From contig NZ_JAFMPZ010000061.1 in NCBI RefSeq assembly GCF_017353455.1, positions 1-36,810 of the forward strand: a stretch of 36,810 nt of DNA, in the 5' to 3' direction. Position 1 is the first letter of the stretch. The number at the start of each line of letters is the position of its first letter. Shown one piece after another: positions 10,887 to 30,307 of this stretch. The position numbers and the translations under genes were made by a program. A model generated the notes under the pieces. The model was not told where the DNA came from. It saw nothing but the letters and a program-made list of their open reading frames with translations, and ran no database searches. The stretch is from Streptomyces laculatispora (GTDB taxonomy: Bacteria > Actinomycetota > Actinomycetes > Streptomycetales > Streptomycetaceae).

Positions 10887-10910
10887 CTCGCCGACACCAT
10901 TTTCGGCGAG
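10887..10910. terminator. bidirectional terminator between convergent genes
   Basis: CTCGCCGA-N8-TCGGCGAG is a perfect 8-bp stem whose loop ends in a short T run. It lies between the converging SDR (stop 10772) and NmrA-like (stop 10949) genes. Confidence 0.65.
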
Positions 10911-10948
10911 TGCCACTGAAGTCGGAACTCGCCTATGGAGCCGCAGTC

Positions 10949-11788
10949 TCAGCGGAACGCGGCGACGTTGCGGGCGGCCCAGTCGGCGAAGGGGCGTGGG
11001 GCGCGGCCGAGGACCCGCTGGACGTCCGGGCTGACACGCAGTTCGGCCGGGCTCGGGGAGCCGAGGATGTCCAGGGTGTCGTCGGCGAGCTCCGTCGGCA
11101 TGCTCTGGGTCATGGCGGCCTTGGCCTCGTCGCGAGTGAGCTCGTGGAACCTCACCGGCGAGCCCAGGGCGGCGGCGATGGCCTCGGCCTGCTGGCGCGG
11201 AGTGACCACCTGCGGGCCGGTCAGCTCGTAGACGCCGCCGGTGTGCCGGTCGTCCAGCAGGCAGGCTGCCGCGACTGCGGCGATGTCCGCCGGGTCGATG
11301 ATCGGTACCCCGACGTCGCCGAAGGGCGCGGCGACGACCTGTTGCGTGCGGACGGACTCGGCCCACCACAGGGCATTGGAGGCGAAGCCACCCGGCCGCA
11401 GGATGGCCCACTGCAGACCGGACTCCCGCAAGGTGTCCTCCAGTACGCGCATCGCGATCCGCGTGGGGCCGCTGGGCCTGGTCACCACGCCCAGTGTGGA
11501 GAGCAGGACGACCCGGCGGACCCCGCCGGCCGCAGCTTCGCCAATGATGTCGGCAGGGTTGGCTCCTGTGGCGTGCAGGTCGCCGGACAGCAGCAGGAAC
11601 AGCGCCTTCGCTCCGGCCAGCGCGGGCGAGAGGCTGACTGGCTTGGCCAGGTCGGCCACCACGTGGCGGGCGCCGTTGGGCACCGCTGCCGTGTGCCGTG
11701 ACACCGCCGTCACCTGCTGGCCCGCTTCGGTCAGTGCCTGCGTCAACGGCCGGCCGATATTCCCGGTGGCTCCGGTCACCACGATCAT
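10949..11788 (-). CDS. NmrA-like NAD(P)-binding protein (atypical SDR)
   Basis: The 279-residue product starts MIVVTGATGNIGRPLTQAL. The TGATGxIG motif marks atypical SDRs of the NmrA/HSCARG and SDR_a5 kind, which bind NAD(P) and often lack the catalytic Tyr-x-x-x-Lys. Further marks are VVLLSTLGV, WAILRPGGFASN and GGVYELTGPQ, all typical of this group. It is probably a redox sensor or quinone/NADPH oxidoreductase (QorB-like). It is divergent from an HxlR regulator, a common pairing in which the regulator controls the oxidoreductase in response to electrophiles or quinones. Confidence 0.85.
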   Translation of the reverse strand: MIVVTGATGNIGRPLTQALTEAGQQVTAVSRHTAAVPNGARHVVADLAKPVSLSPALAGAKALFLLLSGDLHATGANPADIIGEAAAGGVRRVVLLSTLGVVTRPSGPTRIAMRVLEDTLRESGLQWAILRPGGFASNALWWAESVRTQQVVAAPFGDVGVPIIDPADIAAVAAACLLDDRHTGGVYELTGPQVVTPRQQAEAIAAALGSPVRFHELTRDEAKAAMTQSMPTELADDTLDILGSPSPAELRVSPDVQRVLGRAPRPFADWAARNVAAFR

Positions 11789-11843
11789 CTTCAGCTCCCT
11801 TGTCAGATGTCTTCTGTGGCCCTCACGCTAGGAGTGGGGCTAA

Positions 11844-11874
11844 CTTCTGGTAAGGGCATACCTTTGGGTAAGCT
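11844..11874. promoter_or_regulatory. HxlR operator/promoter candidate
   Basis: Two near-identical 11-mers, CTTCTGGTAAG (11844-11854) and CTTTGGGTAAG (11862-11872), lie 18 nt apart on the same strand. GGTA and TACC form a small inverted repeat between them. The second copy overlaps a possible -10 (TAAGCT) just before the hxlR ATG, consistent with autorepression. Confidence 0.4.
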
Positions 11875-11880
11875 CATGGC

Positions 11881-12252
11881 ATGACAGAAAGCGTGCAGCG
11901 TGGAGGCGTTGAGGCGGAGGGGCGGTATGACGTGTTTCACACCGACTGCCCCGCGCGCGGTGTGGTCGACCACGTGACCAGCAGATGGGGGGTCTGGGTA
12001 CTGATCTCCTTGCGGAGCAGAAGTCTTCGGTTCTACGAGCTGCGCGAGAGCATCCAGGGCATTAGCGAGAAGATGCTCGCCCAGACGCTGCGGGCGCTGG
12101 TCCAGGACGGCCTGATCTGGCGGGAGGTCGAGCCGACGACGCCGCCGCAGGTCACCTACGGGCTGACCGAGTTCGGCCGGGACGTCGGCGAGCCGTTGAC
12201 GGAGATGTTCGACCGGATCACACGGCGACTGTCGCCGCAGAGCACGGGATAG
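11881..12252 (+). CDS. HxlR-family transcriptional regulator
   Basis: The 123-residue protein is a single winged-helix HxlR domain: HTDCPARGVVDHVTSRWGVWVL with the family's N-terminal Cys at residue 23, RFYELRESIQGISEKMLAQTLRAL as helix-turn-helix, and VTYGLTEFGRDVGEPL near the end. The Cys in this position is the sensing residue in several redox- or aldehyde-responsive members. It is divergent from the NmrA-like gene, with 92 nt between. The ATG at 11881 has no clear ribosome-binding site and may be leaderless. Another ATG lies 5 nt upstream but is out of frame. Confidence 0.9.
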   Translation: MTESVQRGGVEAEGRYDVFHTDCPARGVVDHVTSRWGVWVLISLRSRSLRFYELRESIQGISEKMLAQTLRALVQDGLIWREVEPTTPPQVTYGLTEFGRDVGEPLTEMFDRITRRLSPQSTG

Positions 12253-12401
12253 CGTGGTGCCGACTGGTGCACATCCGCGACGCGATGGACGACCGACGTT
12301 TTGTGCGACATCCCGCGAGTTCCCCTGAGCCTTGCTGAGCCCTTCCCCGCGTGGCCAGGGTGTTCTCTCTCCTTGGGATGCTCTTCGAGCTGGTGACGTA
12401 A

Positions 12402-12418
12402 CTTCAGGATTCTTGAAG
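12402..12418. promoter_or_regulatory. inverted repeat upstream of the recombinase trio
   Basis: CTTCA-N7-TGAAG lies about 56 nt before the likely recombinase start. It may be an operator for the small HTH protein of the trio or a recombination-core half-site. The rest of 12253-12443 shows only a direct repeat of CTGAGCC (12325 and 12335). Confidence 0.3.
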
Positions 12419-12473
12419 CGTTCTCACTTCGTCCGATCGATCTGTGATCGGGGTGAAGGTGAGGAGGCTCGGG

Positions 12474-13550
12474 TTGGCGCTGGCAGCCGTACGCGACCTG
12501 CGTGAGTTCCGCGATCCGGTCTCGGCGGAGGAGCTGGAACAGTTCGAGACCGATGTACTCGCCAGCTTCGTGCTCGCGCGTGCTTCGGCGGGGCTGGCGG
12601 ACGGCACGATCCGCGGGGACGTCGGGCACCTGGACCAGATGCGGGCCTGGTTCGGCGGACCGCTGTGGGACATGGAGCCGGCCGACGCCGACGGGTACTT
12701 CGGGAAGGTGCTGCGGGGCTCGCCGAGCGGAACCCGGCTGGCCCGCGCACAGGCGCTGACCACGTACTTCCTGTTCCTGGAGCTGCGGCACAAGGTCGAG
12801 ATCCATCGGATGACCGGGCGGGTCGTCGAGTGCCCGATCGACGAGATGAACCGGCCGCGAGGGTCCAAGGACGCGGCCTTGCGGATCCCGCCGACCGAGC
12901 CGGAGATCAAGACCCTGTTCACCGGCTGGGGCGGTGAGCTGGCCACCTGCCGCAAGTTCACCCCGACCGCACGGAACTACACCGCATCGAAACTGATGTC
13001 CCAGGTCGGACTCAGGGTCAGCGAGGCATGCAAGCTCGACCTGGCCGACATCAAGTGGGACCTGGGCCGCTTCGGCAAGCTCCACGTGCGTCACGGCAAG
13101 GGTGCCCGCGGGTCGGGCCCACGCGAGCGGATGGTGCCGCTGATCAACGGTGCCGACCGCACGCTTCGATGGTTCATCGAGGACGTCTGGGGCCAGTTCG
13201 ACGACGACCACACCCGACCCGGTGCCCCGCTGTTCCCCTCCGAGCGCAAGAACTCCGACTGCTCCGCGCGCCGCGTCGGCGACGACGCCTTGCGCAACGG
13301 CCTGGCCGCCGCGGCGAAAGCCCATCTGCCCGGATGGGCCGACACGCTCACGCCGCACGTCCTGCGGCACTTCTGCGCGTCCGAGCTCTACCTCGGGGGC
13401 CTTGATCTGCTCGGTATCCAGGAGGTCCTCGGACACTCCTGGATCGCCACCACAATGCGGTACATCCACGTCCAGCAGACCCGGGTCGAGGACGCCTGGC
13501 TGTCCGGACAGCAGCGGGCCGCGAAGCGGCTGGAAGGACTGATGGGATGA
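12474..13550 (+). CDS. tyrosine recombinase/integrase, first gene of a trio
   Basis: The 358-residue product carries a full tyrosine-recombinase active site: Arg181 in GLRVSEA, HVLRH with His295 and Arg298, His321 in LGHSW and the nucleophile Tyr330 in MRYIHV. Residues about 20-140 form the SAM-like core-binding domain. The frame is open from GTG 12444, but GAGGAGG at 12461-12467 is correctly spaced for TTG 12474, so that start is preferred. Its stop overlaps the next gene by ATGA, so the genes are translationally coupled. Size and company (about 360-residue recombinase, small HTH protein, larger second recombinase-like protein) recall Tn554 and other multi-recombinase elements. It probably moves this module site-specifically. 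Confidence 0.88.
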   Translation: MALAAVRDLREFRDPVSAEELEQFETDVLASFVLARASAGLADGTIRGDVGHLDQMRAWFGGPLWDMEPADADGYFGKVLRGSPSGTRLARAQALTTYFLFLELRHKVEIHRMTGRVVECPIDEMNRPRGSKDAALRIPPTEPEIKTLFTGWGGELATCRKFTPTARNYTASKLMSQVGLRVSEACKLDLADIKWDLGRFGKLHVRHGKGARGSGPRERMVPLINGADRTLRWFIEDVWGQFDDDHTRPGAPLFPSERKNSDCSARRVGDDALRNGLAAAAKAHLPGWADTLTPHVLRHFCASELYLGGLDLLGIQEVLGHSWIATTMRYIHVQQTRVEDAWLSGQQRAAKRLEGLMG

Positions 13551-13876
13551 AGTGGAACCTGCGGCTGACCGCCGCGAACAAAGGCATCTGGAAAGCGTCC
13601 GAACTCCAGCGGAGCCTGGCCGAACACGGCTTGGTGATCTCGGCCGGGAAGATGTCCGGCCTGTGGTCCGGCCAGCCGGTCTCCCTCAAACTGGAGGACC
13701 TCGACGTGATCTGCGTCGTGCTCGGATGTGAGATCAGCGATCTGCTGATTCCCGAGCCCGGGAAGGTCAAGCTCCCGGGACAGCAGGCAGTCGTCCAAGA
13801 GGCCACGACCGGCTCGGTGGTGGCCCCGGCCGTCGTGCCCAAGCGCCGCGACGGCCGTTCCCTGCCGCCGATGTGA
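13547..13876 (+). CDS. XRE-like helix-turn-helix protein of the recombinase trio
   Basis: The 109-residue product has an XRE/Cro-type fold: MKWNLRLTAANKGIWKASELQRSLAEHG, then LVISAGKMSGLWSG as the turn and recognition helix, and LKLEDLDVICVVLGCEISDLL, the usual closing helices of XRE domains. The tail is basic (PKRRDGRS). It overlaps the upstream recombinase by 4 nt and is followed 15 nt later by the zinc-ribbon protein. By analogy with TnpC of Tn554, or with excisionase-like partners, it could orient or regulate recombination. A simple autoregulator is the alternative. Confidence 0.8.
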   Translation: MKWNLRLTAANKGIWKASELQRSLAEHGLVISAGKMSGLWSGQPVSLKLEDLDVICVVLGCEISDLLIPEPGKVKLPGQQAVVQEATTGSVVAPAVVPKRRDGRSLPPM

Positions 13877-13891
13877 CCTGGTCACACCGCC

Positions 13892-15466
13892 ATGGGGAAG
13901 ATCAGCGAGAACAAGCCGGCGGCCTCCTGCTCTGGCTGTTTCGCCTGGGGGCAGCTGCCCGGCCGGTTCTGCCGCGGCTGCTACACCTACGGCCAGCAAC
14001 ACGCCGTCGGCGAATGCGCCGGCTGCCGGCGGCAGGTTCCGGTCGATGACAAGCACGGCTACTGCCGCCTCTGCCGGGCCCAGGCGACCTGGGCGATCAA
14101 GGCCAGCGGCAAAGCTTCGGTGACCGAGCCGTACCTACAGCAGGTGACCTGCCAGCAGCTGTTCTTCGCGAACCTCCAGCGGCCCAAGAACGGCGGGCCG
14201 CGAGTCGGCAAGGCCGGACGGCGCGTGCTGAAGCCACCGCCACTTCCCGAACCGTCTCGCGTGATCACGCCGTCAACGCAACTGACACTGTTCACCGTCA
14301 CTCGGGACTTCCGCCGGTTCGACCGCGAACTCCACGCCGACCTGGCCAATCCATGGCTGGTCCGGGCCCGGCAGGCCGCTCGGGCACTGGGCGAGGCTCG
14401 CGGCTGGAGCCGCTGGATCACCAGCGACGTGAACCGAGCCCTGGTCATCGTGCTGTCCGGCTACCGCGAAGGCGAATCGATCCGGTACTCCGGGCTCTTC
14501 CCGGCCCTACGAGTCCGCGGGCTTCCCGTCGTGCGGACCGCCGAAGTCCTCGACCGCCTCGGCCTGTTCACCGACGACCGGGTCCCCGCCGTCGACCGGT
14601 GGCTGGAGCGAAAGCTCTACGGGATGCCCCCGGGCATCCACCGCGCCGTCGAAGCCTGGGTTCGCACTCTCCTCAACGGTGGCCCGCGATCCGAGCCTCG
14701 CTCCCGGCATACGACATGGGCCTACCTGGGGGAGATCCAGCCGGTGCTGCTGGAGTGGTCCAGCCGCTACGACCACCTGCGAGAGGTCACCCGGGAAGAC
14801 ATCATCGCGGCCCGGGACGCTGTCACCGGCAAACAGCGCGAGAGCCGGATCGTCGCGCTGCGGTCGCTGTTCCGGCACGCGAAGAAGAACGGCCAGATCT
14901 TCCGCAACCCCACGATCCGCATCCGTGTCCCCCGGCAGACCGGCGGCGTCCTCCAAACCCTCGTCCAGGCGGACATCGACGAGGCCATCGCCACGGCCAC
15001 CACCCCAGACATCCGGCTCATCGTCGCCCTGGCCGCCGTCCACGCGGCACGGCCGAAGATGATCCGCACCATGCAGCTGGACGACGTCGACCTGGGCAAC
15101 CGGCGCATCACCGTCGGCGGCCACGTCCGCCCACTCGACGACCTCACCCACCGAGCGGTCCTGGACTGGCTCGAACACCGCCGCAACCGTTGGCCGAACA
15201 CGGCCAACCTCCACCTGCTGATCACCCAGAAGACCGCCGTCGAACTCGGCCCGGCCGGCAAGCTCTGGACCACCCGGGCCACCCGCAACCTCACCGCCAC
15301 CCTCGAACGGCTCCGCGTCGACCGTCAACTCGAAGAGGCGCTCACCCACGGCGCCGACCCGCTCCACCTCGCCCTCGTTTTCGGCATCGACGAGAAGACC
15401 GCCATCCGCTACGCGGACTCAGCACGCGCGCTTCTGGGAGATGCCGCCGAGCAGGCATCGCGGTGA
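13892..15466 (+). CDS. zinc-ribbon recombinase-like protein with eroded active site
   Basis: The 524-residue product begins with four CxxC pairs (Cys13/16, 27/30, 42/45, 58/61), enough for two zinc ribbons. Residues about 280-345 resemble a SAM-like core-binding domain (WAYLGEIQPVLLEWSSRY, VTREDIIAARDAV, LRSLFRHAKKNG). The last 170 residues follow a tyrosine-recombinase catalytic fold (IVALAAVHAARPKMIRTMQLDDVDL and LALVFGIDEKTAIRYADSA). A Tyr is kept in IRYAD, but the H-x-x-R box is not visible and the first Arg motif is atypical, so it is probably a non-catalytic partner that binds DNA. It is the third gene of the operon. A compositional role like TnpB of Tn554 is inferred. Confidence 0.75.
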   Translation: MGKISENKPAASCSGCFAWGQLPGRFCRGCYTYGQQHAVGECAGCRRQVPVDDKHGYCRLCRAQATWAIKASGKASVTEPYLQQVTCQQLFFANLQRPKNGGPRVGKAGRRVLKPPPLPEPSRVITPSTQLTLFTVTRDFRRFDRELHADLANPWLVRARQAARALGEARGWSRWITSDVNRALVIVLSGYREGESIRYSGLFPALRVRGLPVVRTAEVLDRLGLFTDDRVPAVDRWLERKLYGMPPGIHRAVEAWVRTLLNGGPRSEPRSRHTTWAYLGEIQPVLLEWSSRYDHLREVTREDIIAARDAVTGKQRESRIVALRSLFRHAKKNGQIFRNPTIRIRVPRQTGGVLQTLVQADIDEAIATATTPDIRLIVALAAVHAARPKMIRTMQLDDVDLGNRRITVGGHVRPLDDLTHRAVLDWLEHRRNRWPNTANLHLLITQKTAVELGPAGKLWTTRATRNLTATLERLRVDRQLEEALTHGADPLHLALVFGIDEKTAIRYADSARALLGDAAEQASR

Positions 15467-15509
15467 AACCCACTCGACCTGCTCAACCGATTGACGAGAT
15501 CATGGACAG

Positions 15510-16019
15510 ATGTCGTCGACCGAATCAGCAGCCCGCGAGCTTCAGGACCGCGCCGTTCTCTGGAGCATGGGCGAGATCCGCGCAACCGACGTCGTCACTG
15601 CTGCCTGTGATGCACTCGTTGCCGGCCTCGACAGTCCTGCCCTGCGGATCCTGGCCGCGTGCACACGCGCGGAGGCGGACTACGACGTCCCCGACCTCCT
15701 GCCCCCGGCACTCGACGAACTGGGCCTCACCTCTTACTCAGTGGGCAGCATTGCCGGACAGGAAGCCGCCGCACGAGCACTTGCCGCCCGGATGCTGGCG
15801 GGCGAGCTGACGCCACGCGAGCTGGCCTTCAGGATCCATCAGCGCTTCGGGCACGAGCTGCCTCTGGCCGAGCGACTCGCCAACCTGGACGACGACTACG
15901 ACGTCCTCGAATACGGCGACAGAACACAGGCGCAGATCGACGCCGATGTCACGGCCGAAGCTCTTCGGCTTGCACAGCACCCTCGTGTTCCAACCGAACC
16001 CACGGATCTACCGACCTGA
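15510..16019 (+). CDS. conserved hypothetical protein
   Basis: The 169-residue, acidic, mostly helical protein (GEIRATDVVTAACDALVAG, ALRILAACTRAEADYDV, LPLAERLANLDDDYDVLEYGD) has no signal peptide, membrane segment or metal-binding motif. Similar proteins are, to my memory, scattered in Streptomyces genomes without assigned function. It starts 43 nt after the trio and could be a passenger of that element or an interrupted chromosomal gene. The ATG at 15510 is used. Another ATG at 15502 is out of frame. No good ribosome-binding site is visible, so translation may depend on the upstream message. Confidence 0.65.
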   Translation: MSSTESAARELQDRAVLWSMGEIRATDVVTAACDALVAGLDSPALRILAACTRAEADYDVPDLLPPALDELGLTSYSVGSIAGQEAAARALAARMLAGELTPRELAFRIHQRFGHELPLAERLANLDDDYDVLEYGDRTQAQIDADVTAEALRLAQHPRVPTEPTDLPT

Positions 16020-16033
16020 AGCAGACCTGTGGA

Positions 16034-16080
16034 CCCGTGGGTTCAGGCTGAAGGACCTTCGGTTTCCTTGAACCCACGGG
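16034..16080 (+). terminator. long-arm hairpin after the trio
   Basis: Perfect 12-bp arms CCCGTGGGTTCA (16034-16045) and TGAACCCACGGG (16069-16080) enclose a smaller GAAGG-A-CCTTC hairpin. It lies 15 nt past the stop at 16019. It can act as a terminator and is the first of several hairpins up to 16294. Confidence 0.65.
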
Positions 16081-16219
16081 GATCCCGGCCCTGTACTCCC
16101 GAAGCTGCCACGAGGCGACAAGTCGCTTTCCGGGATCGACCGATTGAGGCGGGATCGCCTCTCGGGACCGATGAGAGGACGTCGGGGATGGGTTCGACGA
16201 TGCCCGTTTCTCAGAAACG
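16081..16219. repeat. cluster of nested hairpins
   Basis: Four further inverted repeats follow in 140 nt: GATCCCGG (16081-16088) with CCGGGATC (16130-16137) enclosing GCGAC-AA-GTCGC, then GAGGCG-GGAT-CGCCTC near 16145-16160, then CCGTTTCT-C-AGAAACGG near 16204-16220. No coding frame is supported. The density is higher than elsewhere in the window and suggests an element end or a structured RNA. Confidence 0.5.
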
Positions 16220-16257
16220 GTCATCTGTGAGAGGGCAGGGTGCCGGTCATGCGCGCG

Positions 16258-16294
16258 CCGTTGGCCGGCCCGCACGTCATGGCCCGGCCAACGG
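16258..16294 (-). terminator. terminator of the alcohol dehydrogenase
   Basis: Perfect 11-bp arms CCGTTGGCCGG and CCGGCCAACGG with a 15-nt loop lie 6 nt past the ADH stop. Confidence 0.75.
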
Positions 16295-30161: not shown

Positions 30162-30307
30162 CCAACTAGCTTCGGTCACATAGCGTTACTTGTCGCTTCG
30201 TCGTTCCTTCGGGAGAGCAAGGCCGAATACGCGACACCTCCCACATGCGAGCCCACCAGCCTCAAGTCCGCATTACGCCACAAGCTTGACAAACCTGATT
30301 CCACAGA

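Follow-up and report, generated by a model that had tools for sequence, protein, structure and literature searches.

The history of multi-protein recombinase transposons goes back to Tn554. Here, we analyze a 36,810-nucleotide stretch of Streptomyces laculatispora DNA (contig NZ_JAFMPZ010000061.1; referred to as the window), in which an initial annotation had described an uncharacterized mobile module of three genes, encoding a tyrosine recombinase, a small XRE-like helix-turn-helix (HTH) protein, and a 524-residue protein that joins zinc ribbons to a recombinase fold, which we call ZN. As judged by sequence comparison, this trio is the core of a mobile element, and it lies beside a terminal inverted repeat (TIR) of a Tn3-family transposon. 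Taken as a whole, the evidence suggests a site-specific tyrosine-recombinase transposon whose ZN subunit recognizes the target, a reading to which we assign a probability of roughly 80%.

According to the portions of PMC10214605 available to us, Tn554, SEs, GInts, and RITs each encode at least two catalytic recombinases. The resemblance to Tn554 put forward in the initial annotation is therefore a loose one: both are multi-protein recombinase elements, but Tn554 (TnpA, TnpB, TnpC) combines two catalytic recombinases with TnpC, whereas the element described here has one and its ZN lacks both catalytic histidines. RITs contain three catalytic recombinases, compared to one here, where the second gene encodes an HTH protein instead. 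SEs (strand-biased circularizing integrative elements; intA-tfp-intB-srap), as far as the same portions describe them, are similar in their target specificity and in having an operon in which a recombinase is joined by a small protein and by Tfp, which has a recombinase fold but not the RHRY set; their imperfect inverted ends and 6-bp spacer may also have a counterpart here, where the spacer is inferred. They differ in gene content, with two RHRY recombinases rather than one, and in their gammaproteobacterial hosts; zinc is not mentioned in those portions. SEs form a circle without an empty donor site; the empty sites of our element lie in other genomes. GInts (ginABCD), in the available parts of PMC5385486, are also multi-protein elements with a degenerate third recombinase (GinC), a small partner, and cargo. 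However, they carry two catalytic recombinases in addition to GinC and are larger islands (cargo of 2.5 to 70 kb) with direct imperfect end repeats and proteobacterial examples; furthermore, GinC lacks the catalytic tyrosine (PMC10214605, same portions), while ZN keeps a tyrosine at that place.

The actinobacterial Tn554-like class, as presented in excerpts of PMC3414803, likewise resides on actinomycete plasmids and chromosomes and places a recombinase of ~350 residues beside a longer recombinase-type protein, but in that class both partners are catalytic, and the FB24 pair has no HTH gene between them. The ZN profile scored 2.1 and 1.2 bits against the pair on FB24 plasmid 1, whose long protein has no zinc-ribbon array, and our recombinase is only distantly similar to that pair (E = 6e-12), which places the element outside the class. 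The gamma-mobile-trio (NCBIfam GmtY; mentioned in a passage of PMC12715929) is also named for three genes and has one recombinase; our recombinase scored 17.4 bits against GmtY (cutoff, 340) and falls outside this group as well, and no GMT model was among the matches of 36 ZN proteins. By Pfam, none of the four open reading frames (ORFs) of the element encodes an IS1111-type transposase. IS4321 and IS5075 are insertion sequences of another enzyme class, with no recombinase, XRE, or ZN gene. These members of the IS1111 family, in the available part of PMC8269217, also target the TIRs of Tn3-family (Tn21-like) transposons, but they insert inside the TIR rather than 2 bp outside it. In the open-access full-text literature, covered through titles, the beginnings of abstracts, and passages, we recognized no description of this trio or of recombinase elements at Tn3 TIRs; the precedents found there for TIR targeting were unrelated IS elements. 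Our element thus appears to be a multi-protein tyrosine-recombinase transposon outside the gene contents of Tn554, SEs, GInts, RITs, and the actinobacterial Tn554-like class.

Extent and ends of the element

The element, its ends, and its target are as follows.

12302 to 16084, + strand: whole element, 3,783 bp, without target duplication; empty site in locus L044
12302 to 12322, + strand: left end TGTGCGACATCCCGCGAGTTC with outer inverted arm GCGAGTTC (dyad arm)
15996 to 16084, + strand: right-end region with three copies of GAACCCACGG in alternating orientation and strong folding
16070 to 16084, + strand: right terminal 15 nucleotides GAACCCACGGGGATC with outer inverted arm GAACCCAC, from the right-end comparison (dyad arm)
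16085 to 16126, + strand: target, outside the element; a spacer (16085 to 16086) followed by a Tn3-family TIR of type A (16087 to 16126)

Comparison with two empty sites defines both ends at single-base resolution. At L044 (genome G170), the equivalent of window positions 10901 to 12301 (92.5%) is fused directly to that of 16085 to 16193 (94.5%); because this flank joins straight across the insertion point, it gives both the size of the element and the absence of a target duplication. The second empty site, L090 (genome G075), was compared with the copy at L010: the left flanks match at 97.4% across 115 alignment columns and the right flanks at 99.0% across 524, and they meet at the same boundary as the element end. 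Where copies extend to the left end, they begin to match abruptly at window position 12302, and the DNA upstream is unrelated. The first 14 bases are identical in 18 of the 21 copies examined, with L030, L081, and L082 as exceptions; within this set, L075 repeats the L008 site and L011 has no flank. At the right end, the 15-nucleotide motif is still recognizable in the distant copies that lie at gene motifs.

The initial annotation had placed the module at 12402 to 16294, without listing either the fourth ORF or the Tn3 TIR target, and the empty sites correct this extent. Its proposal of mobility holds, since copies occur in unrelated flanks and empty sites exist: the flank alignment it had recommended delivered both boundaries, and a trio always fixed at one chromosomal locus, which would have spoken against mobility, was ruled out by the same unrelated flanks. 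Its suggestion that the hairpin-rich tail is the end of the element also agrees with a right end at 16084; the tail folds with a z score of −3.8, and none of 200 shuffles was equally stable.

An end at 16127 to 16137 was first drawn from conservation past 16084 and was later dropped. Early alignments, in which similarity continued to 16127 to 16137 in two copies, would fit the idea that this conserved DNA is part of the element and that the junction with a Tn3 TIR is an artifact of end mapping. However, the stretch past 16084 is retained in both empty sites, lacks an adjoining trio at 18 of 21 places, and terminates a complete Tn3 transposon. Its presence in empty sites and in trio-free TIR copies identifies it as target, and we consider the artifact explanation extremely improbable.

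Insertion at terminal inverted repeats of Tn3-family transposons

The TIR in the window differs at 4 of 38 positions from that of L105. This complete 8.8-kb Tn3-family transposon encodes a transposase of 1004 residues (PF01526; E = 5.2e-127), ends in inverted repeats, and is flanked on either side by an identical pentanucleotide, GACTC. Right flanks of unrelated insertion sites resemble one another over their first 40 bp. The right-flank pattern was found at 21 places, spread over 17 of 121 genomes; a trio right end adjoins 3 of these places, and the others are trio-free. In two genomes, the pattern forms inverted pairs, separated by 7.3 kb in one and 8.8 kb in the other. The 7.3-kb segment (L104:1521-8839), which lies between inverted type A TIRs, appears by eye to hold oxidoreductase-type genes, and its transposase is a C-terminal remnant near one end. 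Two further TIR types adjoin the right ends of other copies and likewise belong to Tn3 transposons: a full-length TnpA gene comes after type B (L183), and the TnpA gene that comes after type C (L185) is itself interrupted.

To call a TIR, we allowed up to 14 mismatches in 38 positions against TIR references that were not drawn from trio junctions. There were 60 distinct right-end rows, from which 11 were dropped by hand (internal motif copies and reverse-strand reads) and one because it was N-masked. A recognizable TIR was found at 37 of the remaining 48, which are distinct sequences and not proven independent events, and it starts exactly 2 bp outside the element in 36 of the 37 (8 bp outside in L013). 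Control windows ~120 to 360 bp away contained a TIR in 2 of 238 cases, one of these being the masked copy's own TIR, shifted by the masked stretch. The pattern behind this count overlooked at least L027, L074, and L089, each of which has a TIR in its right flank. At L009, a 3.3-kb segment has a TIR at each end, each with a trio right end on its outer side. Collectively, these comparisons indicate that the element is very probably real and targets Tn3-family TIRs. Its recurrent insertion at these repeats places it in the functional class of IS4321/IS5075.

Several observations weigh against this reading. No TIR was recognized at 11 of the 48 right ends. A duplication prediction, by which the far TIR should be followed by 3 bp of the left flank and 2 bp of the right flank, could be read at the two loci where a far TIR was found: it was mismatched at L074, and at L006, 4 of 5 positions matched, and the far TIR is degenerate. 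For four plasmid copies, the far TIR was not found in longer stretches. The adjoining Tn3 transposons may be truncated, but the duplication prediction stays unsupported. The window also contains a second Tn3-type TIR (30185 to 30224, − strand), with 7 of 40 mismatches to type A and facing the TIR at 16087. Because the 5 bp outside it are GAATA, it is not obviously the distal end of the transposon to which that TIR belongs; if it were, it would not match the duplication prediction either.

Proteins encoded by the element

12444 to 13550, + strand: tyrosine recombinase, 368 residues (Pfam Phage_integrase PF00589; E = 9.3e-22)
13547 to 13876, + strand: XRE-like HTH protein, 109 residues (PF13443 HTH_26; E = 1.2e-9)
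13892 to 15466, + strand: ZN, 524 residues, zinc ribbons and tyrosine-recombinase fold; proposed target-recognition subunit (structure model, PDB matches, target covariation)
13928 to 14074, + strand: ZN zinc-ribbon region with cysteines 13, 16, 27, 30, 42, 45, 58, and 61 (alignment columns; metal binding inferred)
14618 to 15463, + strand: ZN recombinase-fold region, residues 243 to 524, with a noncanonical active site that keeps R475 and Y507 (structure match, alignment columns)
15510 to 16019, + strand: ORF4, 169 residues, in some copies only; other genes occupy this place elsewhere

The three genes are present as initially described, with the start of the XRE-like gene overlapping the stop of the recombinase gene by 4 bp. 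The recombinase had been called fully catalytic, and R191, K219, H305, R308, H331, and Y340 are indeed invariant in all 24 aligned relatives. Pfam assigned families to these first two proteins only (Phage_integrase and HTH_26) and gave subthreshold matches for ZN and ORF4.

In ZN, the predicted zinc ribbons are reflected in eight N-terminal cysteines. Of the 36 relatives in the alignment, 31 have the full set, three are gapped there, and two have a substitution. We modeled the structure of ZN, as had been recommended, and found a recombinase fold without a full catalytic set. Residues 243 to 524 match XerH (PDB code 5jjv; Z score, 15.0; root mean square deviation, 3.1 Å over 267 residues) and the Tn1549 integrase (Z score, 14.1; 4.0 Å over 259 residues), and ZN profiles match XerC, XerD, XerA, and Gp33. 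Thus, ZN has the fold of the core-binding and catalytic domains of a tyrosine recombinase. The model has a predicted local distance difference test score of 82.3 and a predicted template modeling score of 0.43; the latter is a weakness of our reading and leaves the domain arrangement of ZN uncertain. The model also matches SroF and MrpR, two phage regulators with a recombinase fold, as well as the related YopR; none of these is known to have recombinase activity.

The HxxR box had been reported as not visible in ZN, and a histidine stands at this place in just 1 of the 36 relatives; the second histidine place holds Leu, Ile, or Met in all 36, so that the R-K-H-R-H-Y set is incomplete. R475, D477, R478, E482, H384, and Y507 are invariant, where R475 and Y507 were equated with the catalytic arginine and tyrosine through a profile alignment adjusted by eye. 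It would therefore be wrong to say that nothing catalytic is left in ZN, as Y507 occupies the apparent catalytic-tyrosine place in 36 of 36 relatives. This conservation, along with R475 at the HxxR arginine place and with R387, which fills the position of the first arginine in 20 of the 36 relatives, could mean that ZN is an active recombinase with an unusual active site and that the element has two catalytic subunits like Tn554. Given the loss of both histidines and of the first arginine in 16 of 36 relatives, we regard such an activity as improbable.

Target selection

To see which protein the target follows, we compared 17 of 24 copies, those with three full-length proteins and a right flank (7 lacked a full-length protein). 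Across these copies, which are related and are not independent events, a point that tells against our reading, target distance correlated with distance in ZN (r = 0.81) more strongly than in the recombinase (0.34) or the XRE protein (0.37). In partial Mantel tests, the correlation for ZN given the recombinase was 0.80, and none of 2,000 permutations was as high; for the recombinase given ZN, it was −0.26. Elements of group 1 (L010 type) have a GGCCC TIR, and those of group 2 (L147 type) have a GGGG TIR. The clearest case is the copy at L077, which combines a group 1 ZN and a group 1 TIR with a recombinase whose closest counterparts belong to group 2 (distance of 0.09 to L079 and L148). We read this pattern, which is correlative, as a likely module exchange in which the target tracks ZN. 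Together, these data suggest that ZN is probably the target selector.

Recombinases usually bind their own core sites. It could therefore be that the recombinase and host factors choose the target, that ZN is merely an architectural or excision factor, and that the match between ZN and target reflects phylogenetic hitchhiking. The small set of related copies and the joint divergence of recombinase and ZN in distant relatives are consistent with this scenario; the negative partial correlation for the recombinase is not, and neither are L077, L079, L081, L148, and L152, whose recombinases lie within 0.11 of each other while their ZN distances reach 0.50 and their right flanks differ. We consider it rather unlikely, and favor target recognition by ZN.

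Relatives of the element insert at other targets. Copies in which ZN is ~50% identical and the recombinase 82 to 88% identical are mostly at other TIR types, such as GGGGGTTGAGGAACATCGGAACGAAAACCGGCGCTAAG; L154 has a close variant of GGGGGTTGAGGAACATCGGAACGAAAACCGGCGCTAAG with tnpA following it, and the right flanks of L081 and L151 were not recognized. Several more distant copies (ZN about 30 to 35% identical) lie within genes at conserved motifs. Both L167 and L185 split tnpA, with both halves identified by Pfam; L168 is at the same codons of a divergent tnpA (the upstream half assigned by eye), and L169 has the downstream half only. L163 splits an istA-like gene, which we take to be of IS21; its right half matches PF22483, and its left-flank ORF had no Pfam match, yet the frame continues across the element. 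L177 adjoins a DDE_Tnp_1 gene (a weak match; E = 2.5e-5), L172 and L175 split a Nudix box (right halves, PF00293; frame WEL/PGG), and L166 splits a gene that looks nuclease-like by eye. The distant copy at L162 (G025:C1:3717000-3731000) separates, in antisense, the two parts of a Tn3-type transposase that is divided near residue 780; the surrounding segment has a pair of inverted TIRs, with AGTAGT beyond each end (repeat noted by eye). Near the interrupted Tn3 transposase at L185, a long site-specific integrase (L185:1-599; 725 residues by record coordinates) with a small partner perhaps belongs to the Tn554-like class, as far as the excerpts of PMC3414803 describe it.

These targets raise the prospect, which we judge an even bet, of a large actinobacterial superfamily that delegates target choice to an exchangeable zinc-ribbon/recombinase-fold subunit and in which many members parasitize other transposons. 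If so, a swapped ZN would send the element to a new conserved motif (several Tn3 TIR classes, tnpA, istA, a DDE_Tnp_1 gene, or a Nudix box). The insertions described here also reveal a layer of elements that live at the borders of actinomycete Tn3-family transposons or within their transposase genes. In the portions of PMC10214605 cited above, biochemical study of each SE protein is called for, and Tfp is supposed to bind DNA. Because the partner, and not the recombinase, tracks the target here, the role of a noncatalytic partner is directly testable via natural swaps. Were ZN a separable targeting subunit, exchange of this second protein could redirect tyrosine recombinases, with no need to re-engineer the enzyme.

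Joint geometry and proposed mechanism

When right and left ends were joined, the best dyad center lay 3 bp inside the left end in all 24 copies, including three with a differing left end (AACTGG...). This position implies a 6-bp spacer formed by the first six bases of the left end. For single joints, the advantage over shuffled sequences was only slight (1 to 144 of 500 were as good), which is a further point against our reading; it is the constancy of the center that we take as evidence for the joint geometry. Left ends retain TGTGCG, and right flanks retain the target's own bases. Strand-biased exchange has been proposed for SEs (PMC10214605, in part), and one dominant strand exchange would be compatible with this asymmetry, although we suggest it only tentatively.

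In the mechanism we propose, the single catalytic recombinase would cut and join at a 36-bp joint composed of the inverted arms GAACCCAC and GCGAGTTC around the 6-bp spacer. ZN, which lacks the catalytic histidines, would determine the target by binding its half-site, either a TIR or, in distant relatives, a gene motif. The XRE protein might regulate the operon or assist synapsis, which is a guess.

Distribution of copies and variable gene content

A single scan covering 84,980 species genomes found 38 loci that encode a ZN relative, and a plasmid search yielded 105 records with a relative (81 from Streptomyces and the rest from other actinomycetes such as Rhodococcus, Arthrobacter, and Nocardia). 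Among 392 searched Streptomyces genomes, 85 had a match at E ≤ 1e-30. A phage element was rejected, with no match among 50,697 phage records, and PADLOC matched none of the four element proteins to a defense system. The window's own genome has one full ZN copy, two short remnants, and one 28%-identical relative. Remnants with only the C-terminal end of ZN are found at L002, L004, L032, L036, L037, and L039, two of them from the window's genome; L032, L036, and L037 retain the right-end region too.

The fourth gene position behaves like cargo. ORF4 itself had no family match above the cutoff in profile searches, and a 36%-identical homolog stands in reversed orientation at L005 (9811 to 10119, − strand), as also seen at L012, L027, L038, and L158. 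Finally, an 8.6-kb copy (L147; G327:C24) has a second recombinase and XRE pair (30% identical) between its own recombinase and XRE genes and is possibly one trio element inserted into another.

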